From Streptomyces sclerotialus (GTDB taxonomy: Bacteria > Actinomycetota > Actinomycetes > Streptomycetales > Streptomycetaceae): 64,000 nt of DNA. Below the pieces are notes generated by a model, which saw nothing but the letters and a program-made list of their open reading frames with translations, ran no database searches and was not told the origin of the DNA. Shown here one piece after another: positions 1,356 through 19,245 of this stretch; the stretch's first letter is position 1, and every line of letters begins with the position of its first letter. The stretch spans positions 2,566,501-2,630,500 of the forward strand of contig NZ_JBFOHP010000002.1 of assembly GCF_040907265.1 (NCBI RefSeq), in the 5' to 3' direction. Both the position numbers and the translations under genes were made by a program.

Positions 1356-2064
1356 ATGCGGCACCTTCCTCCATGAGCTTGTCCATCAGCTGATAGCTGT
1401 GCTCGACGGCCTGGTCTACGTGGTCGAGTACAGCCTCGGCGTGGTCGGGGATGGTTCCGCTGTTGATGGCCATGGTGATCTGGTTGAGGTTGTTGCCGAT
1501 GCGGTTGAGCGCGGTGACGTGCGCCTCGACGGCCTCCACCAGGGGGCGGGCCGGGTCGTCTTCCGGGCTGCCGGTCAGGGTGGTCTGGCCGAGGGCGACG
1601 GCGAGTGCGGCGTCGCCAACGAACCCAGCGAACTTCTGACCGCGCCGCGTAGCCTCCGCGGCGATGATGCGGACCGCAGTGGGAGTGAAGCGGATGGTCT
1701 TGTCCTGGTCGCGCTTCTCGGTGGTGCGCTTGCGGTTCATCAGCGCGGGCAGGGTCGGGGCGTCGGGCTCGCGCCACGAAGGGTGCTCGACAGGCGGCGC
1801 GGTGTCGGCGGGCGGCTCGTCAGGCACCGTGTCGGGAGGAACAGCGTCGGAAGGGACAGCGTTGGGCTCGGCCACCCCCTCCCCTGGCTCGGGCGTCCGC
1901 TGGCGCCCGGCCTCCTCCTCCGCCACACCAGGGGCGGGGGCAAGCGCGGACGAAGCCTCGTTAGAGGCTCGTTCGCTCCAGCTTGCTGCTGTTCGTCGGC
2001 CCAGGCCGAACCATCCCCTGCGGCGGCGCGAGGGGGCGGCGTCGTTGGTGCTGTTGTCGTACAT
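1345..2064 (-). CDS. MobC-like relaxosome accessory protein
   Basis: A 239-residue protein directly upstream of, and overlapping, the relaxase gene. The first 100 or so residues are Pro/Ala/Glu-rich and look disordered. The segment after KRTTEKRDQDKTIRFTP (about residue 115 on) looks like a ribbon-helix-helix DNA-binding fold, followed by helices containing the NRIGNNLNQI motif typical of MobC-type relaxosome proteins. Known MobC proteins bind near oriT and help the relaxase open the strands. A good ribosome-binding site (GGAGC) lies 6 nt before the ATG. Position and motif together support the call; the exact family was not tested by search. Confidence 0.8.
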   Translation of the reverse strand: MYDNSTNDAAPSRRRRGWFGLGRRTAASWSERASNEASSALAPAPGVAEEEAGRQRTPEPGEGVAEPNAVPSDAVPPDTVPDEPPADTAPPVEHPSWREPDAPTLPALMNRKRTTEKRDQDKTIRFTPTAVRIIAAEATRRGQKFAGFVGDAALAVALGQTTLTGSPEDDPARPLVEAVEAHVTALNRIGNNLNQITMAINSGTIPDHAEAVLDHVDQAVEHSYQLMDKLMEEGAAYGA

Positions 2065-2100
2065 GGCGGTGCTCCGGTGGCGTGTGCGCGGGTGATGTCA

Positions 2101-2216
2101 CATCCGTTGCATCCGTCGCAGGGCTGGTCAGCACAGGTACGGACACACGGGCAGGTACGGAGAGATGCGTCCCGGAAAGGCGATCCGTCCCCGCGCTGAC
2201 CTGCGCGGGGACGGAT
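2101..2216. other. Putative oriT-like region with direct and inverted repeats
   Basis: The non-coding gap upstream of the mobC-relaxase operon carries ordered repeats: CATCCGT twice (2101-2107, 2110-2116), CAGGTACGGA twice (2134-2143, 2152-2161), then a perfect 14-bp inverted repeat (ATCCGTCCCCGCGC at 2183-2196, loop TGACCT, complementary arm 2203-2216). Direct repeats plus a perfect stem beside mobC/relaxase genes are what relaxase recognition sites look like. The stem could instead, or also, be the terminator of the DUF3631 gene, which ends 31 bp away and is transcribed towards it. No nick site can be named. Confidence 0.45.
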
Positions 2217-2246
2217 GCGACGCAGTGATACGGACTCAGGCTGGGG

Positions 2247-3971: not shown

Positions 3972-3985
3972 GGATGTTCCTCTCT

Positions 3986-4022
3986 GGTGAGAGGCAGGGC
4001 GGGCGAAGCCCCGCCTCTCACC
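3986..4022 (-). terminator. Stem-loop between excisionase and DUF3631 genes
   Basis: A 10-bp perfect outer stem (GGTGAGAGGC at 3986-3995 with its complement at 4013-4022) is followed by one mismatch and a 4-bp inner GGGC/GCCC stem. It sits 86 bp downstream of the excisionase stop and only 15 bp upstream of the DUF3631 start codon. It could terminate the xis transcript or act as a translational or origin structure. There is no T-tract, as is usual for streptomycete terminators. Confidence 0.45.
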
Positions 4023-4107
4023 GGTTCGTTTGTTCAGGAAAGGGCAGCGAGTTGGGGAGCCGGCCCTCGGCGTTGGCGCGCCGGGGGCCGCACTGTTTCG
4101 GTGCCGG

Positions 4108-4338
4108 TCAGGCCGTGAGGTCGTACGTGGCCTGGGCTGCGAGCCATTCGTCCACCTCCGGCCAGCGGTAGCGCAGGTGGCGGCCGACCTTGAGGGTGTT
4201 CGGGCCCGTACGGCGGTGCCGCCACTGATAGAGGGTCTTCACCGGCACACCGAGGTAGGCGGCGACCTCCTCCGGCGTGGCCAGCGGGGTGCGGCTCGTG
4301 CTGCCGGCGGCGATTACGGGGCGAGAGTTTCGGGGCAT
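4108..4338 (-). CDS. xis: Excisionase-type helix-turn-helix protein
   Basis: A 76-residue MerR/AlpA-like winged-helix protein. The motif TPEEVAAYLGVPVKTLYQWR followed by a basic wing (KVGRHLRYRWPEVDEWLA) is the standard pattern of excisionases encoded next to tyrosine integrases in actinobacterial elements. It would bend DNA at the att site and push the integrase towards excision. The ribosome-binding site GAAGGAGA is strong. The gene is on the opposite strand from the integrase and separated from it by the XRE gene, unlike the compact xis-int pair of pSAM2-type elements. Confidence 0.85.
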   Translation of the reverse strand: MPRNSRPVIAAGSTSRTPLATPEEVAAYLGVPVKTLYQWRHRRTGPNTLKVGRHLRYRWPEVDEWLAAQATYDLTA

Positions 4339-4762
4339 GGGTCTCCTTCAACAGGGATAGGGGGCTGGACATGATGACCACAGTTTTCCTGCCGCATCCA
4401 GCGGCATTGTGCAGAGCTTTCACGGCCCCACCAAACGGCACATCGCCGACTGGGCTGTCACCGTAAAAGCAAATCCCCTGTTGATCTTCATCGCCAAAAA
4501 TCAGAGTTCCATCTGACCGATTACCACCGGAAGGTCCGGGCGGAACCGATCAACCCTCCCAGAAAGAACCACGAGGCCAGGAGGGTGCTGTGACGAGCGG
4601 CGATGCCTGTCGCCGCAGTGGCGGCGCGGGACCATAGCACAAAATTCCGGCTTCACTGAATCGCTCATCCCGCATCTCGCTTTACCCGTCGGATGCGAGT
4701 TATGGAAAGTTTCAGAGCCATCGCTTGCCACGGCCCGGTAATTCGAGTTACAGCTTTCTGTC
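4339..4762. promoter_or_regulatory. Divergent intergenic region between xis and XRE regulator genes
   Basis: No gene is supported in these 424 bp. The stretch is clearly poorer in GC than the surroundings, with A/T-rich patches near 4380 and 4490. It must carry the promoters for the leftward excisionase/DUF3631/mob genes and the rightward regulator/integrase pair. The regulator start at 4763 has no Shine-Dalgarno sequence; TTACAG lies about 8-13 bp upstream of it, so the message may be leaderless. Operators for the XRE protein are expected here, but I see no convincing long palindrome. Confidence 0.4.
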
Positions 4763-5065
4763 ATGGCAACACGACCCATCGAAATAGGCCCTGCCGGAAT
4801 CCAGGCCGCCCGCACCATCGAGAGCCTGCGCCTGGCGCGTGGGCTCTCCCAGCACCAGCTCGCCGAACGCTGCACCGCACTGGGTCGGCCACTGACCAAC
4901 ATCGCCCTCAGTCGCACCGAGCGCACCCGCCGCCGTTGCGACATCGACGACCTCGTCACCATCGCCGCCGCCCTCGGCATACCCCCGGCTGCCCTTCTGC
5001 CCCAGTGGACGGATCTCAGCGTCACCTCCCGCTCCGCAGCTGTACAGGAGGCCCTCCTTGGCTGA
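4763..5065 (+). CDS. XRE-family helix-turn-helix regulator
   Basis: A 100-residue protein with a Cro/CI-type helix-turn-helix in the first 65 residues (RLARGLSQHQLAERC, then LSRTERTRRRCDIDDLVTIAAALG). It probably controls the integrase it overlaps, or the divergent excisionase side. Its stop overlaps the integrase start by 8 bp, so both come from one transcript and the two reading frames are coupled. No ribosome-binding site precedes the ATG. The fold call is secure; the target is inferred from position. Confidence 0.85.
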   Translation: MATRPIEIGPAGIQAARTIESLRLARGLSQHQLAERCTALGRPLTNIALSRTERTRRRCDIDDLVTIAAALGIPPAALLPQWTDLSVTSRSAAVQEALLG

Positions 5066-6335
5066 GCCGTACGACCGCTGGCATAAGAAGCGGCCGCAGC
5101 CCGGCGAGGAGAAGTGCAAGAACCACGGCAAAGTACCCTCCGGCGAACACGGGCGCGGAAAGCGCTGGCTGGCCCGGTGGCGTGACCCGGAAGGGAACCA
5201 GCAAAGCGAGAGCTTCGACCGGTTCGAGGACGCCCGGCAACACCTCACCAAGATGCGGAGCGGCGTCGACGACGGAACGTACATCGATCCGAGGAAGGGC
5301 GAGGCCCAGCTCAAGTCGGTGGCCGAGCAGTGGCTGGAGAACCAGATCTTCGACAATCCCCGGACGTACGCCCAGTACGAGTCACGCGTACGCAACCACA
5401 TCATCGAACCGCTCGGGGCGCTCAAGCTGCGCCAGGTCAAGTCGTCCACCGTGCAGACCTGGATCAAGCACCGGCTGCAGGTACTCGACGAGACGACCGT
5501 GGGCCTCGTCTTCACACACCTATCTTCGATCCTGGCCATGGCCGTGGACGACGACCTGATCGCCAAGAATCCTTGTGAAACAGGCTCGGTGAAGCGGGTG
5601 AAGCCCCGGCGGTCAAAGAAGACGGCGAAGGATGTACCGCTGTCGTGGGAGCAGACGGATGCCCTACGGCCGCACTTGCCCGAGCGTTACCAGGCCACAG
5701 TCGACTGCGGCCGAGGACTGGGCATGCGGCAGGGCGAGATCTTCGGGTTCAGCCCCGAGGACGTCAACTGGCTGCAGAAGAACAAGGTCGTCCACATACG
5801 CCGTCAGATCGCCCACGATCGCGGCACGCTCGTCTTCGCTCCCCCGAAGGGCGGCACAGAGGACGACCCGAAGGATCGGTTCGTGCCGCTCAGCGACGAG
5901 CTGGCGGCGTTGCTCACCGAGCACATGCGTAAGCATCCGCCGGTCGAAGTCTCACTTCCCTGGCTGGAGAAGGGCGCCGAGCCGATCACCGTCCGCCTCG
6001 TGTTCACCACGCGCGAGCGGAAGCCACTGAACAAGAACTACTTCAACTACCTCTGGAAGGGCGCCCTGGAGGCAATCGGCGCGATAGCAGCCCTCAACGA
6101 CAAGCCCGTCGGAAGGGGCCGCAAGTGGCAAGAGTGCCGGGACAAGATGATGCACTCACTACGGCACCTCTTCGCCTCCGAGGCGATCAACGAGGGCGTC
6201 GACGTCTACACGCTCGCCGACCTCCTCGGCCACGAGGACCCTGCGTTTACCCTCCACCGCTACGTCCACCGTGTGACGGGTGCGGTCGAGAAGGCCCGCA
6301 AGGCGATCGGCCGACGCTACCGCCTAGCCGCCTGA
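5058..6335 (+). CDS. int: Tyrosine site-specific integrase
   Basis: A 425-residue tyrosine recombinase. The N-terminal arm-binding domain (about 36-80) has the RWLARWRDPEGNQQSESF pattern, a SAM-like core-binding domain spans about 85-170, and the catalytic domain starts at about 195. Catalytic residues are visible: R224 (GLGMRQGE), K264, H366-x-x-R369 (HSLRH), H392 (LGHED) and the nucleophile Y402 (HRYVH). The start is TTG at 5058, chosen because AGGAGG lies 7 nt upstream and the frame then covers the full family length. All catalytic residues are present, so the enzyme may be active. The att site would be expected near its 3' end. Confidence 0.93.
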   Translation: MAEPYDRWHKKRPQPGEEKCKNHGKVPSGEHGRGKRWLARWRDPEGNQQSESFDRFEDARQHLTKMRSGVDDGTYIDPRKGEAQLKSVAEQWLENQIFDNPRTYAQYESRVRNHIIEPLGALKLRQVKSSTVQTWIKHRLQVLDETTVGLVFTHLSSILAMAVDDDLIAKNPCETGSVKRVKPRRSKKTAKDVPLSWEQTDALRPHLPERYQATVDCGRGLGMRQGEIFGFSPEDVNWLQKNKVVHIRRQIAHDRGTLVFAPPKGGTEDDPKDRFVPLSDELAALLTEHMRKHPPVEVSLPWLEKGAEPITVRLVFTTRERKPLNKNYFNYLWKGALEAIGAIAALNDKPVGRGRKWQECRDKMMHSLRHLFASEAINEGVDVYTLADLLGHEDPAFTLHRYVHRVTGAVEKARKAIGRRYRLAA

Positions 6336-6626
6336 AGAGGTCCCACCCGCCTCACTCGCCTTCGAGCAGATCCACCGCCACTCCTGGATATCTATGTCGA
6401 ACTTGCCTCGACGGACGTCCTGGAGAGCAGCCGCGTAACCGATCTCGATGGCTCGCGAGAACGCTTCAAGGACCTCCATCGGGGCGTTCAGGTAGCCGCT
6501 GCCTGAGTGGAGGTTGGCAGCAGCTTCGGACACCGCGCGAGCGTCCTGAGCAGGCACGGTGGCTATGTGGAGATCGTTGATGGCGCGTACGAAACCATCG
6601 AGCTGTTCCTTTGGTGTGTCAGTCAT
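6324..6626 (-). CDS. Small hypothetical protein
   Basis: A 100-residue, mostly alpha-helical, acidic protein beginning MTDTPKEQLDGFVRAI. I do not recognise a family. It converges on the integrase gene and overlaps its 3' end by 12 bp. The frame stays open upstream to 6797, but that extension would cross the direct repeat at 6690-6744 and has an unnatural composition, so I prefer the ATG at 6626, although its ribosome-binding site is weak. Codon use is typical of a coding frame. It could be element cargo. Confidence 0.5.
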   Translation of the reverse strand: MTDTPKEQLDGFVRAINDLHIATVPAQDARAVSEAAANLHSGSGYLNAPMEVLEAFSRAIEIGYAAALQDVRRGKFDIDIQEWRWICSKASEAGGTSSGG

Positions 6627-6689
6627 GAGGGACAGGATGTGCCGCCGAGGGCTGTTCGAAACGCCAGCCCGTCGTTTCTCCCCCGCGAT

Positions 6690-6744
6690 GTGCACCGCTT
6701 GTACAATGGACCGGCCGTGGAACACGCGTCCGAGCAGGTCAGAA
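6690..6744 (+). repeat. Left copy of a 55-bp imperfect direct repeat
   Basis: This segment aligns without gaps to 9112-9166. The first 13 bp (GTGCACCGCTTGT) and the last 18 bp (CGTCCGAGCAGGTCAGAA) are identical, and the 24 bp between match at about 13 positions. It lies 355 bp beyond the integrase stop, where an attachment site would be expected. It also contains TACAAT and its complement, so a promoter role is possible. Similarity stops sharply on both sides. Confidence 0.6.
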
Positions 6745-6852
6745 CGCTTTTTTCGCTCTCCTGTGTCGCCTGTGGGCCGTGGGTCAAGTTCTTCCACCCT
6801 CGGAAGGCGCGGCCCACGGCGCTGCCGTGTCAGTCGGCCCTAGCTTGACTGG

Positions 6853-7473
6853 TCATTCGTCGCTGGCTTCGGACCTGGGACCCAAACCATCGGGGTTCCT
6901 CAGTCTAGCCCTGAGCATTCGTCTCATCTCAGACTGGTTGCTTCGCTCCCACTCCTTCCAGGCCACAGTGAAGGCGCCGGTCTCTCTTGGGATGGGATCA
7001 CCACGTCGCCAGGCACCCATGCACTCAACGGCATGTTCGGTCACGGCCTGGAATGTCCACTGCCGGCGGATCGGCGTGCACCTATCTATCTCCTCCCAGT
7101 TCTCCAAAAGCTCAAGTGTGCGGAGGAGGCGTTCGCGCAGCTCGTCATTTCGGACGACATAGGCTGCGATCTTGGCAGGGCCCAGCGAGTCATTCAGAAC
7201 CGTTCCCCACTCCCGCGCCTGTAGGTAGTACTCCTCTCGCACCTCCTCCCTGATCACGTCCGGTCCTGTCTTCGGGGGCGGATCTGGCTCCCAGGGCATG
7301 CTGCGCAGGTGGCACTCAATCCGCACAAACGCTTCCGATAGCGCCGCCACAGCAGCGTCCTGCCTCCCTTCCAGACGCTCGCTCTTGGCTCGCTTAGCCT
7401 CCCAGCGATGCGCGAAATAGCTCGCAATGAAGGACACGATCGCACCAAGCATCACCAACAGGAACTGCTCCAT
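6853..7473 (-). CDS. Membrane-anchored hypothetical protein
   Basis: A 206-residue protein with one N-terminal membrane segment (residues 2-21, FLLVMLGAIVSFIASYFAHRW) followed by a charged, helical cytoplasmic domain rich in Arg and Glu, probably partly coiled coil. I recognise no enzyme motif. Its GC content is lower than the core genes. It lies inside the island bounded by the two 55-bp repeats. A single-TM anchor with a helical domain occurs in many phage-defence and signalling proteins, but nothing here proves that role. Confidence 0.6.
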   Translation of the reverse strand: MEQFLLVMLGAIVSFIASYFAHRWEAKRAKSERLEGRQDAAVAALSEAFVRIECHLRSMPWEPDPPPKTGPDVIREEVREEYYLQAREWGTVLNDSLGPAKIAAYVVRNDELRERLLRTLELLENWEEIDRCTPIRRQWTFQAVTEHAVECMGAWRRGDPIPRETGAFTVAWKEWERSNQSEMRRMLRARLRNPDGLGPRSEASDE

Positions 7474-7915
7474 GCCACCAGTGTGATCTCCCTAGGTCCC
7501 AAGCGCAGGCCGTCGGCGGCACCTCTGGCTGAGAAAGAGCGCCGCCGATGGGAGACCACTGCCAGGCGGCGACGGCTGCCTCTCCCTCGCTATCCGCTTC
7601 TGCGTCGAACGCTGCGTCGCAAACCCACAACGGCGCTGCCCGCCCCCCTCAGGCGGGCCAGTGGCGGAGGCGAACGCACGCCCCGCTTGTGCTAAGGCTT
7701 TCCTGTAACTCGACGCAGAGGTGGACAGACATCGGGTACAGTGCGGCCAGATGCCGGTCCGCGGAGGCCCGGTTGCCAGCAGAAGTATGTGAGCCCGGTA
7801 CTCACGGAAGCTGTGCAGGGTGTGGAGCACCTACTCCGCGACGCAGCAAACGACGCGTGGTTTCACAAGGTATGTGGCTCTGATTCGCTGACCGGGCAGC
7901 GGTGTGAGGTGAAGC
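7474..7915. other. Intergenic stretch of the accessory island
   Basis: About 440 bp without a gene I can support. Open frames here have shadow-like composition. The region should hold the promoters of the leftward membrane-protein gene and the rightward 288-residue gene. GGGTACAGTG near 7735, with GTGGAC about 17 bp before it, is a weak -10/-35 candidate. Confidence 0.3.
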
Positions 7916-8782
7916 ATGCCCGAAAGCCAGCGAAACATGGCGGCCCGTACTCGTTTGCTATACACCGGCGAGAAGTTCGACGCAGCCAAAGCAGGCATCG
8001 CCCGCGACCACTCCATCGGGCTAGATGTGTGTATCGCAGGGCAACGAGAGCTACGTGCACTGCTCGCACTCGGATTGCTGAACCGCGGGTATGACTACAG
8101 CACTCCCGCAGGGTGGCGCATGGCTGCCCTCTCCGCGTACACCATCACGGCGTCCCCACGGTTCCATCGCATGGTGCTCATCACTGACGTGCCCCACAAC
8201 GTGGTCGACTACCTGCTGCCGGAGCCGAACGGGGTAGGCGGGTTGCCGGGTCTGCGGGTTGAGGAGCACCGCGGGTACGGGACCTACATCATGCGGCATC
8301 TGCCCACCGACGCTCAGTTCGTAGTCACGGACAATCCGTCAGGGAAGCCTGCCGGCGCACGAAGGAAGTCCTACGTCGATTTCTTCACCGTGGACGCTCC
8401 GCTCACTCCCGGCGAACGCGAACAGCTTGCCAGCGTGCCTCCCATGACTGAGTACGCACAGTGCCTGCTGGCCGGCGTCTTCTGCCGCATCTCAGCACGA
8501 GACCCTCACCGCAGGTGGGCAATCGGCAACTGGTTCTACGACCCCCTGCAGCGCTCAGGCTGGCTCGGCAATCCCCGCAGTCTCGGTGAAGACCGGCAGC
8601 TTCAAGGGACCGGTGACAGCTGGGAGCTGCGATGGGACTCATACCCCTATCCAGACGACCTGGCCGCTTCATTGACTGATCCGGTCATCGGCATTCCCGG
8701 GGCCAGGACGGTGTCGGCACCCGACCATCTCGCCATCACGCTCGGCAACGCTACGCTCCGCCTTCGCTCGCGACGTTCCTAG
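7916..8782 (+). CDS. Hypothetical protein of the accessory island
   Basis: A 288-residue soluble protein beginning MPESQRNMAARTRLLYTGEKF. No signal peptide, membrane segment or catalytic motif I can name. The pattern TRLLYTGE...AK at the N-terminus is familiar from uncharacterised proteins of streptomycete plasmids and integrated elements, which supports element cargo. GAGGTGAA lies 6 nt before the ATG. Codon bias is weaker than in the core genes, consistent with transfer. Function unknown. Confidence 0.6.
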   Translation: MPESQRNMAARTRLLYTGEKFDAAKAGIARDHSIGLDVCIAGQRELRALLALGLLNRGYDYSTPAGWRMAALSAYTITASPRFHRMVLITDVPHNVVDYLLPEPNGVGGLPGLRVEEHRGYGTYIMRHLPTDAQFVVTDNPSGKPAGARRKSYVDFFTVDAPLTPGEREQLASVPPMTEYAQCLLAGVFCRISARDPHRRWAIGNWFYDPLQRSGWLGNPRSLGEDRQLQGTGDSWELRWDSYPYPDDLAASLTDPVIGIPGARTVSAPDHLAITLGNATLRLRSRRS

Positions 8783-8834
8783 TCGGCCGCACGCCATTCG
8801 TCTCTATGAGCTACCGAGAGAAAGCACTCGCGTC

Positions 8835-9101
8835 GTGATCGAGATCCTTGGGGCCTTTGGCACCGGCATGCCTTGGTGGGCAGCATGCCTGGTCGTCGCA
8901 TTCACTAGCGTGGTCTTCTTCTGTCTCCGGGCCCTGCGAATGCTCATCCCAGATGAGTCCCGTGACCGATTGGCATGGTGGATCGCCGTCCTGGAGCACC
9001 GCCGCCGTACCGCCGGGACGGCCGTACGGCAGCGACGAGTCGCTGGCAAGTACCGCAAGGCACACCGCCGAAGTCACAAGAGGCGTAGCGATTCCGTCTG
9101 A
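8835..9101 (+). CDS. Small single-pass membrane protein
   Basis: An 88-residue protein with a GTG start and one hydrophobic segment (about residues 13-32, WWAACLVVAFTSVVFFCLRAL), then a strongly basic tail ending in KYRKAHRRSHKRRSDSV. The topology suggests a short outer or lumenal end and a cytoplasmic basic tail that could touch nucleic acid or lipid head groups. It ends 10 bp before the right copy of the 55-bp repeat. No family recognised. The ribosome-binding site is poor, so the start is uncertain. Confidence 0.45.
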   Translation: MIEILGAFGTGMPWWAACLVVAFTSVVFFCLRALRMLIPDESRDRLAWWIAVLEHRRRTAGTAVRQRRVAGKYRKAHRRSHKRRSDSV

Positions 9102-9111
9102 CGCTCCTCCA

Positions 9112-9166
9112 GTGCACCGCTTGTGCACCGAGCTCGTCGTGGGTCACACGTCCGAGCAGGTCAGAA
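9112..9166 (+). repeat. Right copy of the 55-bp imperfect direct repeat
   Basis: The partner of 6690-6744 in the same orientation, 2422 bp away. It marks the change from the low-GC island to core chromosomal genes: the next features are the terminator and gntR gene. This makes it a candidate right attachment site of the element or of a second, degenerate insertion. Confidence 0.6.
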
Positions 9167-9215
9167 GCGTTTCCCAGCTGTACTTCGACATCTAAAGAGC
9201 ACCTGCTCTTCTCGC

Positions 9216-9253
9216 CGAGGGCCGTCACCCCGCAGCCGGGGTGGTGGCCCTCG
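9216..9253 (-). terminator. Terminator hairpin of the gntR gene
   Basis: A 17-bp stem with two G-T wobbles (9216-9232 with 9237-9253, loop CAGC), lying 43 bp beyond the gntR stop on its transcript side. It also insulates the core chromosome from the accessory island. Confidence 0.75.
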
Positions 9254-9295
9254 GGCGTTGTCGGGAGGGCGTTGTCGGAACGGCTGAGGGCGGGC

Positions 9296-9985
9296 TCAGA
9301 GGGACTGGAGGCGGGTGAGGGTCTGCTGGAGTTCTTCGCGCAGGGCGTGGCCGGCTGCGGCGGCGTTGCCTGTGGCGACGGCGTCGACGAGGGCGGCGTG
9401 GCCGGCGTCGCCGTGGTTGGGGTCGGCGGAGCGGAGGTCGAGGAGTTCCACGAGGTCGATCAGGCGCTGGCGGAGTACGGGGACGAACTCGCCGAAGAGG
9501 GCGGTGAGTACGGGGTTGTGGGCCGCGGCGACGACGGCGTGGTGCAGGGCGATGTCGGCGTCGACGAATTCGGCGTCGCTGCCGGTTGCGGCCGCGCGGC
9601 GGCGGTCCAGGGCCGCGTGGAGGGCGGTGAGGTCGGCGTCGGTGCGGCGTTCCGCGGCCAGCTGTGCGGCCTCGACCTCGATCAGCATGCGGACTTCGTA
9701 GGCGTCGGTCACGGCTGACCTGCGCAGTTGGCCGGCCCAGTCCTCCTGCGGCTCGGTGGCGACGACGAAGACGCCGGCGCCCTGGCGGGCCTGGACCAGG
9801 CCGGCCCCGGCGAGGGCGCGCAGGGCTTCCCGCACAGTGGAGCGGCCCACGCCGAGGGTCTTGGCGAGGGTGGTCTCGCCGGGGATCTTGGTGCCGACCG
9901 GCCAGTCGCCTCCGGTGATCTGATCGCGTAGGTGCTGGGTGGCCTGTTCGACCAGGGGGCTGGGGCGGAGCGCACCGAGAGTCAC
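9296..9985 (-). CDS. GntR-family (FadR subfamily) transcriptional regulator
   Basis: A 229-residue repressor. A winged helix occupies about residues 8-75 (IPGETTLAKTLGVGRSTVREALRALAGAGLV), followed by an all-helical FCD effector domain with metal/ligand-binding histidines (DIALHHAVVAAAHNPVL, GHAALV, GHALREEL). FadR-type regulators usually bind a small carboxylate. It is divergent from the leuA-MFS operon with about 56 bp between its start and the leuA leader peptide, so it probably controls leuA and itself. An inverted repeat CTCAG-GTTGT-CTGAG at 10000-10014 in that gap is a possible operator. The ligand is unknown; a branched-chain intermediate such as isopropylmalate is an inference. Confidence 0.85.
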   Translation of the reverse strand: MTLGALRPSPLVEQATQHLRDQITGGDWPVGTKIPGETTLAKTLGVGRSTVREALRALAGAGLVQARQGAGVFVVATEPQEDWAGQLRRSAVTDAYEVRMLIEVEAAQLAAERRTDADLTALHAALDRRRAAATGSDAEFVDADIALHHAVVAAAHNPVLTALFGEFVPVLRQRLIDLVELLDLRSADPNHGDAGHAALVDAVATGNAAAAGHALREELQQTLTRLQSL

Positions 9986-10160: not shown

Positions 10161-11981
10161 ATGGCTTCCTCCGAGACCACGACGTTCCCCACGCTGCGTA
10201 CCCCGTCGGGCGAGGTTCCCGCGCACGCTCCGGCGTGGAATCCGCAGCGGCCCAGTGCGATGCCGCACCACCGCTACCGGCCCGCGCACTCCCGTGTCGC
10301 GCTGCCCCTGACGGACCGGACGTGGCCGTCCCGCCGGATCGAGCAGGCCCCGCTGTGGGTGCCGGTCGACCTGCGCGACGGCAACCAGGCGCTGGCCGAG
10401 CCGATGGACATCGCGCGCAAGCGCCGGATGTTCGACCTCCTGTGCACCATGGGGTTCAAGGAGATCGAGGTGGGCTATCCGTCCGCCAGCCAGGCCGACT
10501 TCGACTTCGTCCGGCACCTGGCGACCAGCGGCGCGGTGCCCGAGGACGTGACGATCTCCGTCTTCACCGCGGCCCGTGACGATCTGATCGACCGGACGGT
10601 CGAGTCCGTCGCGGGACTGCCGCGTGTCCTGGTCCACCTCTACACCGCCACCGCACCCACCTGGCGTGACGTGGTCCTGGGGCGGTCCCGCGCGGAGCTG
10701 CACGGACTGATCCGGGAGGCCGGCACCCATCTGATGCGGCGCGCGGAGGAGCAGTCCGGGTCCGACATCCGGTTCGAGTTCTCCCCCGAGGTCTTCAACC
10801 TCACGGAGCCGGACTACGTCCTGGAGGTCTGCGACAGCATGACCGAGCTGTGGGACGCCTGCCCGGACCGGCCGGTGGTCCTCAACCTGCCCGCGACGGT
10901 GGAGATCGCCACACCCAACGTCTACGCGGACCAGATCGAGTACATGGACCGCCACCTGGCGCGGCGTGACTCGGTGATCCTGTCCGTGCACCCGCACAAC
11001 GACCGCGGCACCGGTGTCGCCTGCGCCGAGCTGGCCGTCCTGGCGGGGGCGCAGCGGGTGGAGGGCTGTCTGTTCGGCAACGGCGAGCGGACCGGCAACG
11101 TCGACCTGGTCGCGCTGGCCCTGAACCTGTACACGCAGGGCGTGAACCCGATGGTCGACTTCTCCGACATCGACGCCGTACGGGAAGTGGTGGAGCACTG
11201 CACCCGGCTGCCGGTCCCGCCGCGCCACCCCTACGGCGGCGACCTCGTGCACACGGCGTTCTCCGGCACCCACCAGGACGCCATCTCCAAGGGCATGGCG
11301 CACCACGCCGAGCGCGCCGCCGAGCTGGGCGTCCCCGCGTCGGAGGCCCCGTGGGAGGTGCCGTACCTGCCCATCGACCCGGGCGACATCGGCCGTACGT
11401 ACGAGGAAGTCATCCGCATCAACTCGCAGTCCGGGAAGGGCGGGGTCGCGCATCTGCTGCACACCCACCACGGCCTGGACCTGCCCAAGGGGATGCGTCC
11501 CGACTTCTCCCGCGCGGTGCAGCGGGTCACCGACGCCGACGGGCAGGAGCTCACCCACAAGGACCTGTGGGAGCTGTTCCGCAGCACCTACCTCGCTCCG
11601 GCCGAGGACGGCCCGGTCACGCTGGTCTCCTGGCACACGGCGGAGACGGCGCCCGGGGAGCACCGGTTCACCTGCACCCTGCGCACGGACGGGGAGGAGC
11701 ACCAGTACGGCGGGACGGGGAACGGACCGTTGTCGGCCTTCGCCGCGGCACTCGGGACCGCCGGGATCGCGCTCGACATCCTGCACTACACCGAGCACGC
11801 GACGGCCACCGGTCCGGGCAGCCCGGCCGTCGCCTACGCGGAGTGCCGGGTGAACGGTACGACGTGCTGGGGCGCCGGCTGGGACACCTCCGTACTCGTG
11901 GCGTCGGTACAGGCCGTCCTGGCCGCCGCCAACCGCGCGCTGCGGACCCGTCCGGCCGGTGAGTCCGGGGGTGCCCGATGA
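10161..11981 (+). CDS. leuA: 2-isopropylmalate synthase
   Basis: Condenses 2-ketoisovalerate with acetyl-CoA, the first committed step of leucine synthesis, in the cytoplasm. The 606-residue protein is of the long actinobacterial type. The catalytic TIM barrel carries [12 protein letters not shown] (metal-binding Asp, residues 68-78) and the metal-binding HxH in [22 protein letters not shown] follows. The C-terminal regulatory LeuA dimer domain (about 470-590) supplies leucine feedback. The ATG at 10161 was chosen because translation from it gives the usual [21 protein letters not shown] N-terminus; the frame is open further upstream but would overlap the leader. It overlaps the MFS gene by 4 bp (ATGA). 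Regulation: leucine leader peptide plus probable GntR control. Confidence 0.95.
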
Positions 11982-13240
11982 AGAAGGGACAGCTCGGCTT
12001 CCTGTCCGGCACGCATGTGGTCAACGACCTGTACCAGGGCGCGATCCCGGCGATGCTGCCGTTCCTGATGTCCCAGCGCCACTACAGCTACGCCGCGGTC
12101 TCCGGCCTGGCGTTCGCGGCGAGCGGCATCTCCAGCCTGTTCCAGCCGGTGTTCGGCGTCCTCTCGGACCGCAAGCCGCGGCCCTGGCTGGTGCCGGCCG
12201 GGTTCTGTGCCGCCGCGCTGGGCGTCGTGGCGGCCGGGCTGGCGGGCAGCTATGCGGCCACCTGGCTGTTCATCGCGCTGGCCGGGATCGGCATCGCGGC
12301 CTACCACCCGCCCGCGACCAGCCAGGCGCGCGCCGCCGGCGGGTCGTCGCAGAAGGCGATGAGCGTCTTCTCGGTCGGCGGCACGGTCGGTGGTTCCCTC
12401 GCACCGACGCTGGTCACCCTGGTCATCGGCTCGGCGGGCTTCTCCGGGAGCTATCTGCTGGCGATTCCCGCCCTGGTCATGGCGGTGCTGTGGGTGCTCA
12501 AGGGCCCCTGGATGCGGTGGCGGGGCCACACGACGGCGGTCCCGCCGTCCGCCGCGGCCCGTGCCGCGGCGGGGGCGAGCGGCGCGGCGCAGGCGGACGA
12601 CTGGCGTTCCTTCGCCCGCCTGGTGGCCGTCATCATCGGGTGGTCCATCCCGTACGTCATGGTCACCTCGATGGTGTCGCTGCACGCGCAGCGCGACCTG
12701 GACAGCTCGGCGGGGGCCGGTGCCGCCGTGCTGACCTGCTTCACCGCGGCCGGGGCGGTCGGCACGCTGCTGGGCGGCTGGGTCGGGGACCGGTACGGCC
12801 GGATGACCTCGATCCGGGTCGGCTACCTGGTGGCGCTGCCCGCGCTGCTGGTCATCGCCTGGGCCCCGGCGCTGCCGGTGCTGGTGGTGAGTGCCGTCGT
12901 CTTCGGTGTCGCGATGTTCCTGCCGTTCGCCGCGCAGGTCACGCTCGCCCAGGACTACCTGCCCAGCCGCCCCGGTACGGCCAGTGGCCTGACGCTGGGG
13001 CTGGCGATGGCGGCCGGCGGCCTGTGCTCCCCCGCGTTCGGCCGGCTCGCCGACGCGAGCGGCCTGAGCGTCACGTTCTACGTGCTGGTCGCCGTCTTCC
13101 TGGTGCCCGTCGTCATGGCGCTCCGGCTGTCCGACCGCACCCCGGACGCGCCCGGGTCCACGCCGGACGCGCCCGAGTCGCCGTCGCCTCAGCCGCCGTC
13201 GGAGATCCGGGCCGAGACGCAGGGGTCCTCGTTGCGGTAG
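11978..13240 (+). CDS. MFS transporter, fosmidomycin-resistance (Fsr)-like
   Basis: A 420-residue integral membrane protein with 12 predicted segments and the MFS loop motif [11 protein letters not shown] between TM2 and TM3 and GDRYGRMTS in the second half. The N-terminus [20 protein letters not shown] is characteristic of Fsr-like exporters. The central loop (about residues 180-210) is Ala-rich and the C-terminal tail is Pro/Ser-rich and probably disordered. Its ATG overlaps the leuA stop, so LeuA and the transporter are made together. This suggests export or import of a leucine-pathway compound or its antimetabolite rather than fosmidomycin. The substrate is not known. Confidence 0.85.
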
Positions 13241-14168: not shown

Positions 14169-14203
14169 GAGGGCCGCCACCCCGGAGCGGGGTGGCGGCC
14201 CTC
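14169..14203 (-). terminator. Terminator of the oxygenase/methyltransferase/acyltransferase group
   Basis: A perfect 15-bp GC stem (14169-14183 with 14189-14203) and a GGAGC loop, 27 bp after the acyltransferase stop. The rest of the 13954-14229 gap shows no gene and must include the promoter of the GNAT gene. Confidence 0.8.
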
Positions 14204-14229: not shown

Positions 14230-16086
14230 CTACTCCCCCGCCAGCAGCTCCCGGAGTTCGGTGACCGCGGCGCTGAGGTGGCCGGCGAAGGCGTGCATCT
14301 GGTCGGCGACCGGGCGGGGGGTGCTGAGGTAGAGGTTGAAGCGGTCGGGGAGGAGGACGTACGCGATGCCGATGCAGCGGCTGCTGGTGGAGCCGAAGCC
14401 GAAGTACTGGATGTACTCGGAGGGGGCCGAGCTGGTGCTCAGGTAGTCGTCGCGCATGACGGTCCAGCCCGGGGAGCGGTAGAGGGCCGGCTGCTCGGTG
14501 ATGCCCAGTTCGGCGCCGCGGCGGCGCTGGATGAGTTCCAGCTCCCAGAGGTGCTGTTCGGGCGCGTCGCCCGCCTGGCACTCCTTCGCGCGGGTGACGT
14601 GTGCGGTGGCGGCCGCGCGGAAGGCCGCGCGGCGGGTGCCGGCGTCGGCCGCCGGGTCCTCCATCGCGGCCACGAACGCCTGGATCTCGGGGGTGACGAC
14701 GCGCATGGCCTCGGTGCGGCCGCGCCGCCACTGCCGGGTGGCGATCGATTCGTACGTGGCTCCCAGCCTGCCCTTGGCGCGCTGATGGGCGAGCTGGTAC
14801 GCGAGCTGGACGAACGCGTCGGGCGAGACACGCAGGGCCTTGGCCGCGGTGGAGCCGAAGTCGTCGAAGGAGACGGTCCGGGTGGCGGTGTCGGCGCCGT
14901 ACTGCGCGAAGGCCTCGGCGGCGGTGCGGATCTGTGCCTGGAGGGCGTCGTCCAGGTGGAAGTGGAGCGGGGCGAGCTCGGGACGGCCCTGGGAGCGGGC
15001 GCCGGACTCGCGGGACTGCTCCTCGGCCGGGGTGCCGAGGAGGGTGTCGACGAAGCTGAGGATCGTCGTGCCGTCCAGGCCGCAGTGCTCGACGTTGATG
15101 CCGGCCCGGCCGTCGGCGAAGACGACGAAGGAGACGGCCTTGTCGAACCAGCGGTTGCCGCGGTCCCCGTAGAGCAGTTCGTCGCAGGTTTCCTGGGTGT
15201 CGGCGGGCGCGAAGTCCTCCAGGCAGACGCAGAAGAGGGCGGTCTCGATGTCGTCGAGCGCCGCCGCGTTGCCGGGGTGGTACGCGCGCAGCGCGTCGCG
15301 CGCCGCCGCCCATTCGGCGCGGGCCATGGTGGTGAGGTGGCCGACGGAGGTGCCCGGCGCGGCCGGTTCGGTACCGGCCTTCATGACGGCGGCCAGGCCC
15401 GCTTCGAGGTCGGCGAGGCCGTGCGGCGTGCCGTCGGCGCCGAGGACGTCCATGCGGTACATCGCGCCCCGGAAGAACACCACGACGTGGCGCGCGTCGG
15501 AGGGGCCCGGCCACTCCTCGGAGTAGGGGTGGCGGACCGTGTCCTGCTGCGCGCCCGGGATGCGGGTGGTGGAGAAGAGGTACTTGTTCTGCTCCATGGT
15601 CTGCGGCGCGCCGCGCAGCACCACGGGCGGGATCTCCTCCCGGTCCAGCCGCCGCTTGTAGGCGACGGCCGCGGCGATGAGTCCGGCCGCCCGCGCCACC
15701 TGGGGCTGCCCGGTGTCCTGGAAGAGGAAGAAGAAGTTGGCGTTGAGGGCGATCCGGTCCCGGCGGCCGAGGTAGCGGTACGGCCAGAAGGTGTCGAGCC
15801 AGCTGTGCACGCCCGGCGTGCTGTCGTACCCCTCCAGTGCCGCCTGGAGGACCGGCCCCGGCCCGTCCGGGCTGCGGAAGGCGGCCACCTCCGCCTCGGT
15901 CGCCGCCCGCTCCTCGGGCGTCAGCAGCGGTCCGCACCAGGCGAGGAACCGCTCGCAGCTGTCCGCCAGGGAGGGCAGCGGCACCCGCGGCAGGGTGTCC
16001 TCGTGGACGAAGGTGGAGGGGGCGGCGGAGCTGGACGGGGCGGCGGTCGCCGGGGTGGCGGTGGCCGTGGACCGACTGGGGTTCAA
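14230..16086 (-). CDS. Choline/carnitine O-acyltransferase family protein
   Basis: A 618-residue enzyme of the carnitine/choline acyltransferase family, unusual in bacteria. Family hallmarks are visible: the catalytic histidine in EHCGLDG (H334, compare EHSPxDG of animal enzymes), TYESIATRQWRRGRTE at about 444-459 (substrate-carboxylate arginine region), and an STSS motif near residue 560. The family moves acyl groups between CoA and a hydroxyl on a trimethylammonium compound. Its start overlaps the methyltransferase stop by 4 bp (ATGA), and an Fe/2-oxoglutarate oxygenase lies just upstream, so the acceptor is probably made by those two enzymes. The acceptor may be carnitine-like; this is inference. 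Confidence 0.85.
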   Translation of the reverse strand: MNPSRSTATATPATAAPSSSAAPSTFVHEDTLPRVPLPSLADSCERFLAWCGPLLTPEERAATEAEVAAFRSPDGPGPVLQAALEGYDSTPGVHSWLDTFWPYRYLGRRDRIALNANFFFLFQDTGQPQVARAAGLIAAAVAYKRRLDREEIPPVVLRGAPQTMEQNKYLFSTTRIPGAQQDTVRHPYSEEWPGPSDARHVVVFFRGAMYRMDVLGADGTPHGLADLEAGLAAVMKAGTEPAAPGTSVGHLTTMARAEWAAARDALRAYHPGNAAALDDIETALFCVCLEDFAPADTQETCDELLYGDRGNRWFDKAVSFVVFADGRAGINVEHCGLDGTTILSFVDTLLGTPAEEQSRESGARSQGRPELAPLHFHLDDALQAQIRTAAEAFAQYGADTATRTVSFDDFGSTAAKALRVSPDAFVQLAYQLAHQRAKGRLGATYESIATRQWRRGRTEAMRVVTPEIQAFVAAMEDPAADAGTRRAAFRAAATAHVTRAKECQAGDAPEQHLWELELIQRRRGAELGITEQPALYRSPGWTVMRDDYLSTSSAPSEYIQYFGFGSTSSRCIGIAYVLLPDRFNLYLSTPRPVADQMHAFAGHLSAAVTELRELLAGE

Positions 16087-16964
16087 AGCTGCTCTCGATT
16101 CGGGTCGTGACGGTCAAGGGACCTGGTGCGTCCGAGGGACCTGGTGCGTCCTGCCGGGCCGTACGGCCGGGAGACGTAGAGCTGTGCGTAGAGCCAGCCT
16201 TCCGCTTCCAGGCCGGTGGCATCCACTCCGGCTTCCGACATCGTGTCCAGGACGAGCGCCTGTTCCTCCGGGGAGGCGAACCGCCGCTGTTTGAACATGC
16301 CGTCGACGCGGGTGGTCTCGTAGCCCAGGGCGGCCAGTTCGCGCTCGACCGGGTCGAACGGGAACATCCGCAGCACGAAGTGGGCCATCCAGGGCAGGTG
16401 GCCGCCCTGCGCGCGGACGACGCGGGTGAGCGTGCGTTCGGTGACGTAGCCGATGCAGCCGGTGGAGAACACCAGGTCGGCGCCGGTCAGCCGGTCGCGC
16501 TGGTCCGGCGTGGGGTCGTGGCTCTCCAGGTCGGCGTGGACGGTGTCGTCGAGGAAGCCGGCCTGCCGCGCGTACGACAGCGCGTTCTCGGAGGCGTCCA
16601 GGCCGACGACGCGCGTGGGGTGCGCGGGCCGGCGGGCGCGGGAGAGTTCGCGGTCCCGCGTCAGCAGCTCCTCGCGCGTGAGGCCGGCGGCCGGGTCGCC
16701 GCCGTAGCGTGCGTACAGCTCGTCCATGGTCACGTCGTACTTCAGCAGGGCGGCGTTGATGCCGTAAGAGCAGCCGATGTCGACGACCTTGGGCACCGCC
16801 ACCCGGTGGATTTCGCGGTACTCCTTGACGAACTTGGCGAAGTACGGCTTGGCGAGCTGCGGTACGCAGTAGTCCAGCGTGCGCAGCACCGTGAAGTACG
16901 CGCGCGGGTCGGGCTGCGTGTAGATGTGGTCGAGCGAGACTTTTCCGGTCGTGTCGAAGCGCAC
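16083..16964 (-). CDS. Class I SAM-dependent methyltransferase
   Basis: A 293-residue protein with the Rossmann motif I VVDIGCSYGIN (about 60-70), an acidic motif II region (VVGLDASENALSYA) and a downstream FSTGCIGYV. A GTG start at 16964 follows a strong GGAGGAG site. The N-terminal 50 residues (LDHIYTQPDPRAYFTVLRTLDY) are not those of EgtD or PEMT enzymes. The C-terminus has a tandem RTRSL(G/D)R repeat encoded by an 18-bp DNA duplication. It is coupled to the acyltransferase and follows the oxygenase by 88 bp. N-, O- or C-methylation cannot be told apart from the sequence. Confidence 0.85.
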   Translation of the reverse strand: MRFDTTGKVSLDHIYTQPDPRAYFTVLRTLDYCVPQLAKPYFAKFVKEYREIHRVAVPKVVDIGCSYGINAALLKYDVTMDELYARYGGDPAAGLTREELLTRDRELSRARRPAHPTRVVGLDASENALSYARQAGFLDDTVHADLESHDPTPDQRDRLTGADLVFSTGCIGYVTERTLTRVVRAQGGHLPWMAHFVLRMFPFDPVERELAALGYETTRVDGMFKQRRFASPEEQALVLDTMSEAGVDATGLEAEGWLYAQLYVSRPYGPAGRTRSLGRTRSLDRHDPNREQL

Positions 16965-17052
16965 GGGGTTGCTCCTCCGTGGATCGCGAGTGGGAAAACG
17001 TCCTGCGGTGTGCTGCGGGGCGCCCTTCCGTCGGAGCATGCCCCGTGGCCGC

Positions 17053-17925
17053 TCAGTCCAGCAGCTGGTCGCCCCGCACGGCGCGGCGCTCGGCCGCCGC
17101 CAGGTGTTCGGGGAGCACCCGGCCGAAGAGCTGGCGGGTGCGGGCCACGCTGCCGATGACGCCGGGGCGCTCGCTGTACGCGAAGATCGCCGAGTGGCGT
17201 GCGGTGTCGCCCTGCACGGGACTGACGCGGTGCAGGGAGTAGCGGCCCTTGAAGAGCTGGAGGTCGCCGGTGTGCAGCGGAAGGCGGCGGATCAGCCGCT
17301 CGCCCCGCCCTTCGAGGACGTCGCGCACGTCGTCGAAGTGCTCGTCCTCGGCGGAGCGGATGCCGGGGCAGTACTCGAAGGCGCCGCCGGCCTCGGCCTC
17401 CTGGGTCAGCATGCTGACGGTGAACTCGTTGGTGTCGAAGTGCCAGGGGTGCTCCCGGCCCGGTTCGACGACGTTCAGGACGAGCCCGGCCAGCGGGTCG
17501 GCGAGTTCGTGCAGCTCCGGGAGGCCGAAGCAGCGGGCGATGAAGGAGCGGAACGCCTCGTGGGTGTAGAGCTGGCTGATGAGCGCGGCCTGCGGGATGC
17601 GGTCCCGGGCGACGAAGGCGTTGCCCCGTTCGAAGGGGATGCGGCCGGGGTGGTCGGCCGGGAGCGAGTCGTCCACCGCGATGTTGTAGACGTTGACCGT
17701 CTCGACGTCGTAGTGCGCACGGGGCGCGAGCGCCGAGCACTCCTGGCGCAGCAGGTCGCGCAGCTCCGCGCGGACGAAGTCCGGCAGTACGGTGCAGCCG
17801 AGTTCGGCCAGGTCACGACGGGCCCGGGCGATCACTGCCCGGCCTTCGGCCCCGGCCGGTTCCGTCAGGGGGTAGCGGGTCGTGTCGACCACCTGGTCGA
17901 GCGTCATGGCTTCCAGCGTGCTCAT
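17053..17925 (-). CDS. Fe(II)/2-oxoglutarate-dependent oxygenase (HalD/BesD-like, hydroxylase type)
   Basis: A 290-residue enzyme. The iron ligands are H162-x-D164 (WHFDTNEF) and H232 (SLHRVSP), with R243 as the likely 2-oxoglutarate anchor. The sequence around them (TQEAEAGGAFEYCPGIR, GDLQLFKGRYSLHRV) resembles the BesD/HalD family that acts on free amino acids. In BesD-type halogenases the Asp is replaced by Gly; here Asp is kept, so hydroxylation is expected, not chlorination. The ATG at 17925 follows GGAGAGG. It is the first gene of the three-gene group and its promoter should lie in 17926-18111, where TGCCACAGTGGCA (17986-17998) forms a short palindrome. Confidence 0.85.
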   Translation of the reverse strand: MSTLEAMTLDQVVDTTRYPLTEPAGAEGRAVIARARRDLAELGCTVLPDFVRAELRDLLRQECSALAPRAHYDVETVNVYNIAVDDSLPADHPGRIPFERGNAFVARDRIPQAALISQLYTHEAFRSFIARCFGLPELHELADPLAGLVLNVVEPGREHPWHFDTNEFTVSMLTQEAEAGGAFEYCPGIRSAEDEHFDDVRDVLEGRGERLIRRLPLHTGDLQLFKGRYSLHRVSPVQGDTARHSAIFAYSERPGVIGSVARTRQLFGRVLPEHLAAAERRAVRGDQLLD

Positions 17926-18111
17926 GCGATCCTCTCCACGCGCGGGCGGACTCCCCAACTCTACGGATGAGTAACGCAGTTGAGGTGCCACAGTGGCACT
18001 TTGCCGGCTGTGACACGTCACACGGGCCCGGCAGGCATACCTGCCGGGTGAGTGGAGAAAGCCGGGCGGCCGTACGCCACCTGCCGAATCAGGTGCGGCC
18101 CCGGTGCGGGA

Positions 18112-18651
18112 TCAGGTGCACTCCGGGCCGTCGAGGGAGGCGGCGTCCAGGGTCTCCGTCAGGGCGTTCAGCCGGCCGCGGAGGTCGGCCAGCTCGGCGA
18201 GGGGAAGGCCGGTGGCGGCGGCGATCCGGCGGGGCACCTCTTCGGCGCGCGTACGCAGGGCGTCCCCGTCGGCGGTGAGGCGGACGGTGACCGAGCGCTC
18301 GTCGGCGGCGCTGCGCTCCCGGCGGACGAGGCCCGCCGCCTCCAGGCGCTTGAGCAGCGGGGAGAGGGTGCCGGAGTCGAGCCGCAGATGGGCGCCGATC
18401 CGCTTCACGGGCAGCTCGCCGTGCTCCCAGAGGACCAGCATGACCAGGTACTGGGGGTAGGTGAGGCCGAGGTCGCGCAGGGCGGTGCGGTACAGGCCGC
18501 CGAACGCCCGGGTCGCCGCGTGCAGCGCGAAGCAGATCTGCTGGTCGAGGCGGAGGTGGTCCTGCGGCGCGGTCTCCGTCCCCGGGTCCGTGTCCGCCCG
18601 GCCGGCCCCCTTCTCGGTCATCCGCTTCCCCGCCGTCTCCTTCTCCGCCAT
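18112..18651 (-). CDS. ohrR: MarR-family organic-peroxide sensor (OhrR-like)
   Basis: A 179-residue winged-helix repressor. The reactive cysteine of OhrR is visible at C40 in LDQQICFALHAATR, and the wHTH runs through RIGAHLRLDSGTLSPLLKRLEAAGLVRR. Oxidation of that cysteine by organic hydroperoxides releases the protein from DNA in characterised members. It is divergent from ohr with operator-like palindromes between, the classic arrangement. An alternative start at 18621 would trim ten residues. Confidence 0.9.
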   Translation of the reverse strand: MAEKETAGKRMTEKGAGRADTDPGTETAPQDHLRLDQQICFALHAATRAFGGLYRTALRDLGLTYPQYLVMLVLWEHGELPVKRIGAHLRLDSGTLSPLLKRLEAAGLVRRERSAADERSVTVRLTADGDALRTRAEEVPRRIAAATGLPLAELADLRGRLNALTETLDAASLDGPECT

Positions 18652-18728
18652 ACGGCCAGCCTATCCGGCTGCTTTGCGCGCTCTCCGATCGCGCGCACCA
18701 CCATTGCACACACTACGGTGGCGCACAT

Positions 18729-18748
18729 TTAAGTTGTGCACCACTTAA
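18729..18748. promoter_or_regulatory. OhrR operator candidate
   Basis: A 20-bp near-perfect palindrome, TTAAGTTGTGCACCACTTAA, sits in the ohrR-ohr intergenic region. Related TTGCACACA (18704-18712) and AATTGTGTG (18747-18755) sequences lie close by, suggesting two or three OhrR binding sites. The A/T-rich character is exceptional in this genome. Confidence 0.65.
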
Positions 18749-18831
18749 TTGTGTGCTGTAGTAGCGGCGTCAGGGAGACCGGGGCCGGATCGCCGGCCGG
18801 CCGGCCCGTATCTCGGAGAGGGATGGTTCTG

Positions 18832-19245
18832 ATGAGCGCTCTGTACACCGCGGTGGCCACGGCCGACGGACGCGACGGCCGCGCCGTGAGCTCCGACGGG
18901 CAGCTGGACCTGGCGCTGGCGATGCCGCCCGCGCTCGGCGGCAACGGTGCGGGCACCAACCCCGAGCAGCTGTTCGCGGCCGGTTACGCCGCGTGCTTCG
19001 CCGGCGCGCTGGGCCTGGTCGGCCGGCAGGCGAAGGCGGACACCAAGGACGCGTCGGTGACCGCGGAGGTCGGCATCAGCTCCGACCCGGCCGGCGGCTT
19101 CGGCCTCTCCGTCACCCTGCGCGTCGAGCTCCCCGACTCGCTCGCCGGCGAGACCGGCGCGCAGCTGGTGAAGCAGGCGCACGAGGTCTGCCCGTACTCG
19201 AAGGCGACCCGCGGCAACATTCCCGTGGAGATCGTCGTCGAGTAA
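18832..19245 (+). CDS. ohr: Organic hydroperoxide resistance peroxidase
   Basis: A 137-residue Ohr/OsmC-fold thiol peroxidase that reduces organic hydroperoxides in the cytoplasm. Both redox cysteines are present: C55 (GYAACFAGAL) and C120 (HEVCPYSKATRGN). GGAGAGGG precedes the ATG at 18832; an ATG three codons earlier is possible. It is regulated by the divergent ohrR through the palindromes between them. A weak hairpin (19283-19301) could end its transcript. Confidence 0.93.
   Translation: MSALYTAVATADGRDGRAVSSDGQLDLALAMPPALGGNGAGTNPEQLFAAGYAACFAGALGLVGRQAKADTKDASVTAEVGISSDPAGGFGLSVTLRVELPDSLAGETGAQLVKQAHEVCPYSKATRGNIPVEIVVE

Follow-up and report, generated by a model that had tools for sequence, protein, structure and literature searches.

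The window analyzed here, a 64,000-nt part of the 8.28-Mb, two-contig genome of Streptomyces sclerotialus (the host genome), carries on its minus strand three adjoining genes that encode a predicted Fe(II)/2-oxoglutarate (2OG) oxygenase (OX; 17053-17925, 290 amino acids [aa]), a class I S-adenosylmethionine (SAM)-dependent methyltransferase (MT; 16083-16964, 293 aa, GTG start) and a member of the choline/carnitine O-acyltransferase family (AT; 14230-16086, 618 aa from its TTG start). Genome comparisons revealed that the trio is a real conserved unit of the form OX-(MT)-AT, hereafter the cassette, which is shared by numerous soil actinomycetes and of which MT is an optional member. Judging from sequence comparison, we consider the chance somewhat better than even that the cassette encodes a self-contained mini-pathway, in which a distinct, choline- or carnitine-like small molecule would be hydroxylated, usually methylated and then O-acylated. 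Under this proposal lie the three protein families and their constant association, the HxD motif of OX, the catalytic His of AT and an altered acceptor site in AT.

The conservation of the unit was assessed in two overlapping sets of genomes. In a survey of 295 genomes of the window's genus by tblastn-type presence counts, a close AT was found in 33 genomes (73-100% identity in the best segment; 34 matches overall, the remaining one being a 33% paralogue in genome G085) and a close OX also in 33 (70-100%; 37 matches overall, four of them weak at 27-30%). These are exactly the same 33 genomes, and the two genes always share a contig, separated by MT or by no gene at all. MT lies within the cassette in 26 of the 33, including G261 (locus L119, C15:99347-100167), where it is split over two frames by a possible frameshift or sequencing error. 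A scan of contigs of GTDB genomes returned 294 AT relatives, of which 80 loci were kept; as some of these loci are identical with genomes of the genus survey, the two counts overlap. OX precedes AT, with both on one strand, in 78 of the 80 loci, which come from nine genera (Streptomyces, Wenjunlia, Actinomadura, Saccharopolyspora, Amycolatopsis, Actinokineospora, Gandjariella, Frankia and Nocardia; one record is labelled [Kitasatospora], in brackets), and the two exceptions have a contig start 44 and 97 bases ahead of the AT match. MT sits between OX and AT in 65 of the 78 loci and is missing from 13. In two genomes of another family that were found via Pfam (G359 and G538), an OX at 68% identity also adjoins AT, so that the cassette branch of AT is accompanied by OX in every genome in which both were sought (33/33 and 2/2), and no OX was found in the genomes of the distant PF00755 carriers G085 and G446. 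Chance neighborhood was rejected, given that OX and AT are together in 33/33 genus genomes and in 78/78 testable GTDB loci. The first-pass annotation of this DNA had placed the three enzymes on one strand and proposed that their genes form a unit, and both claims hold: the OX-AT order is kept across genomes, so the neighbors are conserved. No AT match was found in 72,556 plasmid records.

Apart from OX, MT and AT, little accompanies the cassette consistently. In a sample of 34 loci, mostly from outside the genus, whose open reading frames (ORFs) were clustered into families, OX and AT were present in all nine genera and MT in seven (by tblastn, MT is in 32 of the 34 loci), and no other family reached three genera. 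Four other families occurred in two genera each, one in 12 Actinomadura loci and 1 Frankia locus and three in 2 loci each. With nothing but OX, MT and AT extending beyond two genera, the cassette seems to form a complete mini-pathway. The neighboring ORFs were called by a simple GC rule, which in a few loci of the genus comparison overlooked AT or OX; the presence counts are based on tblastn and genome searches instead. Among the 32 other loci of the genus, 24 have a GlnA-type glutamine synthetase near the cassette and 17 a shorter one, which the window also has, and no biosynthetic gene beyond these glutamine synthetases is constant there. A larger biosynthetic cluster was rejected, as the recurring Streptomyces neighbors are core genes, e.g., the two glutamine synthetases and lipoyl synthase. 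The genes that flank the trio in the window are not part of the unit either: those for LeuA and a major facilitator superfamily (MFS) transporter recur in none of 40 other loci, those for MarR and OsmC in one (L040) and a GNAT gene in two (L040 and L041). The rate of nonsynonymous substitution was lower than that of synonymous substitution in all 26 gene-by-relative comparisons (nine relatives for OX, nine for AT and eight for MT; ratios about 0.2-0.5); OX, MT and AT thus look like working genes under purifying selection.

OX matches the Pfam family PF23169 (HalD) with 60.4 bits against a curated cut-off of 26, and so do, at E ≤ 0.01, all 26 proteins of the OX alignment, which were drawn from the 78 loci. 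Its top solved folds are those of the HalB/HalA/BesD group, at 15-21% identity. The predicted iron ligands are H162 and D164 of an HxD motif (HFD in the window; codons for H162, F163 and D164 at 17434-17442, minus strand, located by sequence and alignment, with H162 at 17440-17442 and D164 at 17434-17436) and the distal H232, and the predicted 2OG-binding Arg is R243. D164 is invariant in the 26 aligned proteins, and the HxG of BesD-type halogenases is absent from OX. The earlier description of the oxygenase as a hydroxylase of BesD/HalD pattern with HxD is thereby upheld, and OX is predicted to be a hydroxylase. The same description had the enzyme acting on an amino acid, and that part fared worse. 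One BesD study lists Glu123, Asp143 and Asp239 as contacts for the ammonium groups of lysine and His137, Arg77 and Trp241 as contacts for its carboxylate (PMC13244439). Three of these six contacts could be aligned with OX: His137 corresponds to H159 and is kept, but Glu123 and Asp143 correspond to L145 and T165. With two of three ammonium ligands aligned with Leu and Thr, OX appears to lack the lysine pocket of BesD. In these two replacements, and in its pairing with a PF00755 acyltransferase, OX differs from the HalA, HalB, HalD and BesD halogenases and from the BesD-like lysine hydroxylase (PDB 7jsd, "Hydroxylase homolog of BesD"), with which it shares only 15-21% identity.

Two other oxygenases were noticed. 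The host genome encodes a second HalD-family protein outside the window (G000:C2:59284-59883, locus L164; 157.5 bits) that has HxD and, by eye, keeps the Glu/His/Asp of the lysine pocket, unlike OX of the window; it is likely a BesD-type amino-acid hydroxylase. A 34% OX homologue with HxD is encoded in a 1.7-Mb genome of the same phylum (L196; G513:C7, 6587-7417), where no acyltransferase was recognized nearby by eye and the neighbors give no hint of a substrate.

AT, earlier described as a carnitine-type acyltransferase, is a genuine PF00755 enzyme. It matches the family model over positions 1-572 of 574 (542.7 bits) and aligns over its full length with CPT2, human carnitine acetyltransferase (CrAT) and choline acetyltransferase (ChAT); its PDB matches include CPT2 (E 4.4e-63) and human CrAT (E 4.5e-59), with whole-length homology at E 4e-57 to 4e-63. 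His334 (codon at 15085-15087, minus strand) aligns, in a HMMER alignment to 1nm8 (human CrAT), with the catalytic His of that enzyme and is invariant; in CrAT the catalytic role is assigned to His343 (PMC11852590). The first-pass annotation had called such proteins rare in bacteria, and PF00755 was found in 5 of 396 Actinomycetota genomes (the window's own included; one is a weak fragment) and in none of 14 control genomes.

The acceptor site of AT departs from those of both characterized specificities. According to an engineering study, ChAT was turned into a carnitine acetyltransferase by four changes, V459T, D460E, N461T and N514R (PMC5054688). At these positions AT has Thr458, Glu459, Ala460 and Gln511, each in all 115 cassette rows of the AT alignment (some genomes are represented twice). 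AT thus carries neither the Thr-Glu-Thr plus Arg of carnitine enzymes nor the Val-Asp-Asn plus Asn of choline enzymes. Gln511 (codon at 14554-14556, minus strand) takes the place of the Arg of carnitine enzymes and the Asn of ChAT, and L072 and L082, which were set apart in the alignment as unrelated bacterial PF00755 proteins, have Arg at this position. Trp514 and Glu515 near Gln511 are invariant, as are Tyr445 and Thr458 of the acceptor site, and altogether 172 of 618 columns are invariant in the 115 rows, the acceptor site among them. The loss of this Arg makes carnitine itself improbable as the acceptor; because AT belongs to PF00755 and keeps the Tyr, Thr and His, a choline- or carnitine-like acceptor is predicted. 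Phe562 is present in 115/115 rows, where CrAT has Met and CPT2 has Gly. The Met in question is Met564 of CrAT, which we take to gate the acyl chain, and with Phe at this position a short acyl chain is predicted. In summary of the known relatives, CrAT and CPT2 share with AT the whole-length homology, the catalytic His, the STS motif and the acceptor-site Tyr and Thr; AT differs from them in having Gln for the acceptor Arg, Ala for Thr and Phe for Met (CrAT) or Gly (CPT2), and in being bacterial and operon-borne. ChAT resembles AT in family, catalytic His and lack of Arg at the carboxylate position, but its V459/D460/N461/N514 are T/E/A/Q in AT, and choline as the acceptor would call for no hydroxylase.

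The locus of one of the two unrelated PF00755 proteins, L072 (G085:C1:556000-575900), contains at 1-9797 a cluster with a piece of a CmlS-type halogenase, a nonribosomal peptide synthetase with a terminal reductase, a class III aminotransferase, the PF00755 acyltransferase (29-33% identity to AT, acceptor Arg kept) and two methyltransferases. The cluster resembles a chloramphenicol-type cluster that uses a carnitine-type acyltransferase.

MT has a Rossmann fold with a glycine-rich motif I, in agreement with a class I SAM methyltransferase; it matches Pfam Methyltransf_11 weakly (23.8 bits) and has no sequence match in PDB. A distant homologue of MT (39-46%) was found elsewhere in 17 of 19 sampled genomes without a cassette MT vs. 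4 of 41 with one, against a background of 54 of 262 genus genomes without the cassette. One genome (G129) has MT at 59% and neither OX nor AT. Stand-alone relatives of MT were also seen at L074 and L078, next to genes for molybdopterin dehydrogenases of the xanthine dehydrogenase type (by Pfam at L074).

In the mini-pathway that we propose, OX would hydroxylate an unactivated C-H bond of a small polar metabolite, and MT, in most lineages, would move a methyl group from SAM onto that molecule, most likely onto nitrogen to give a methylated ammonium group. AT would then acylate the new hydroxyl from CoA with a short chain, most likely acetyl or propionyl, and its His would serve as the general base, just as it does in the acetyltransferases for carnitine and choline. 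The acceptor, prepared by OX and MT, would occupy the place of carnitine or choline, yet be neither, and the ester formed would carry a short acyl chain on a small hydroxylated amine. We infer the order of these steps, methylation at N as opposed to O or C, the short acyl chain and the identity of the acylated hydroxyl with that made by OX. Several observations weigh against this proposal. The fold matches of MT are generic, mixing N-, C-, S- and O-methyltransferases with no substrate class, and the sequence alignment of OX to HalD and HalB is weak (E 0.023 and 0.031). Once kinship is allowed for, the association of the distant MT homologue with cassettes that lack MT comes down to three independent pairs on supported branches with a median p of 0.5; methylation in trans is therefore a lead only. 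In addition, two MT-less Amycolatopsis genomes contain no MT homologue at E ≤ 0.001.

Other readings of the cassette were weighed against the mini-pathway. One of them follows the first-pass annotation, which had proposed an acyl-carnitine-like product from an amino acid: OX would hydroxylate an amino acid or its betaine (lysine, trimethyllysine or gamma-butyrobetaine), MT would complete the trimethylammonium group and AT would make a true acylcarnitine or a close homologue. We regard this as unlikely. It draws support from PF00755 membership and from His334, Tyr445, Thr458 and Glu459, which are as in carnitine enzymes, from the BesD carboxylate contact kept as His159 of OX and from the known members of the OX fold group, which act on free lysine, ornithine and other amino acids (PMC8407142). 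However, the Arg introduced by the choline-to-carnitine swap (Asn514Arg; PMC5054688) is Gln in 115/115 rows and is kept by L072 and L082, Leu145 and Thr165 stand opposite the BesD residues Glu123 and Asp143, and 13 of 78 loci have no MT. Of the earlier route, the unit, the BesD/HalD fold with HxD and PF00755 are supported; the amino-acid-acting pattern and the acylcarnitine-like product are not. We give little credence to the idea of a degradative or salvage unit running in reverse, in which AT would transfer the acyl group from an ester taken up by the cell onto CoA and OX would oxidize or demethylate the freed amino alcohol. Fe/2OG enzymes can indeed demethylate by way of a hydroxylated carbon. 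Carnitine acyltransferases are also described as running in both directions (PMC11852590). Yet no transporter or catabolic family, nor any other, accompanies the cassette in three or more of the nine genera, and the usual companion, a methyltransferase, is ill-suited to degradation.

A tailoring or self-protection module that acts by hydroxylation, methylation and acylation on products of other clusters in the genome or on foreign compounds would fit the stand-alone chromosomal position, with the GlnA-type and the shorter glutamine synthetase near in 24 and 17 of 32 loci, and the restriction of the cassette to 33 of 295 genomes. Such a module is nevertheless improbable, as no biosynthetic cluster is constantly near and the conservation of AT (172/618 columns over 115 rows from nine genera) suggests one fixed small substrate. 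The fold of OX and its automatic NCBI name, "HalD/BesD family halogenase", might point to a halogenase and to a pathway of cryptic halogenation. We find this hardly credible and rejected a halogenase identity of OX, since HxD, not HxG, is kept in 26/26 aligned OX and since it is the loss of the carboxylate ligand that frees the halide site (PMC10187165; PMC13244439). The name, which is on many among the 120 relatives listed, is suggested to be misleading for them.

All three enzymes belong to known families or folds, but OX and AT, by sequence, lack the features of the characterized specificities, and there is a fair chance that the product of the mini-pathway is new. A parallel is the eukaryotic pair of gamma-butyrobetaine hydroxylase, a TauD-like oxygenase, and carnitine acyltransferase, which follow the same logic of 2OG-dependent hydroxylation and subsequent O-acylation of the new hydroxyl by a PF00755 enzyme. 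OX is of a different oxygenase family and the acceptor site of AT differs. More speculatively, and at well below an even chance, the cassette may be a widespread undescribed route to an acetylcholine- or acetylcarnitine-like ester. Actinomycetes would use the BesD-fold hydroxylase to make a hydroxylated, usually methylated amino alcohol of their own and would acylate it with a private branch of PF00755, whose acceptor site with its invariant Gln and Ala is unfit for carnitine or choline. In that case, a new small molecule, be it a signal, an osmolyte or an acyl carrier, would be common to about a tenth of Streptomyces species and to several other genera. Full-text searches of the open literature, from which most subscription journals are missing, listed no paper that deals with the cassette in its title or the start of its abstract. 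Enzymes of PF00755, rare in Actinomycetota, are familiar from textbooks for their part in the energy metabolism of animals and fungi and in neurotransmission. The cassette would bring the BesD fold a new reaction and the carnitine acyltransferase family a new acceptor, and it might yield a new metabolite common in Streptomyces. Given that it consists of two or three genes with no helpers conserved across genera, the cassette could be expressed whole and its product read by mass spectrometry.

Upstream of OX is the palindrome TGTGACGTGTCACA (18009-18022, minus strand), a candidate operator of the cassette that recurs in Streptomycetaceae about 80-250 bases before OX. Of the 98 unique 300-base regions upstream of OX, 67 contain it at ≤3 mismatches, as against 2 of 98 random 300-bp stretches drawn from these loci and about 1 of 98 shuffled ones. 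When the regions were extended to 400 bases and counted again at ≤3 mismatches, 63 of 65 unique Streptomycetaceae regions and 4 of 33 others had the palindrome. It occurs in cassettes with and without MT and fits what we take to be the Streptomyces Crp pattern, GTG-N6-GNCAC. The palindrome is put forward as a candidate for a shared control element, and its recurrence counts in favor of the mini-pathway. The host genome has one further copy, with one mismatch, between genes for an alkyl-sulfatase-like metallo-beta-lactamase hydrolase and a PucR-type regulator; as about one such match is expected by chance (a rough hand estimate), no regulon is claimed. By eye, a TGTGCTA box stands shortly before OX in 10 of the 12 non-Streptomyces regions viewed (L128, L134, L139, L140, L141, L153, L156, L157, L158 and L161), perhaps a different promoter.

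Within the trio, GGAGGAG stands upstream of the GTG start of MT (by eye). The 4-bp overlap of MT and AT that the first-pass annotation had described is present only if the TTG start of AT is used and is lost with the database form of the protein, which has 584 aa instead of 618. Its single terminator corresponds to a perfect 16-bp inverted repeat (hairpin) after AT (14169-14203, no strand assigned), a candidate transcript end that has no T-run and is absent from the list of the terminator scan. No NCBIfam model fits OX, MT or AT at E ≤ 0.01.

Other features of the window lie on both sides of the trio. At 10161-13240, the gene for a LeuA of yeast type (717.8 bits) overlaps that of the MFS transporter by 4 bp; the host genome has five LeuA_dimer matches, this one included. 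At 18112-19245, a gene for a MarR-type regulator near OhrR (146.6 bits, under the cut-off of 200) is divergent from that for an OsmC-like protein (61.2 bits), and the two are perhaps an organic-peroxide pair. At 1102-6335, ORFs of plasmid-like appearance (by eye) lie to the left of a gene for a phage-type integrase (5058-6335); possibly the end of an integrated element is just left of the region.

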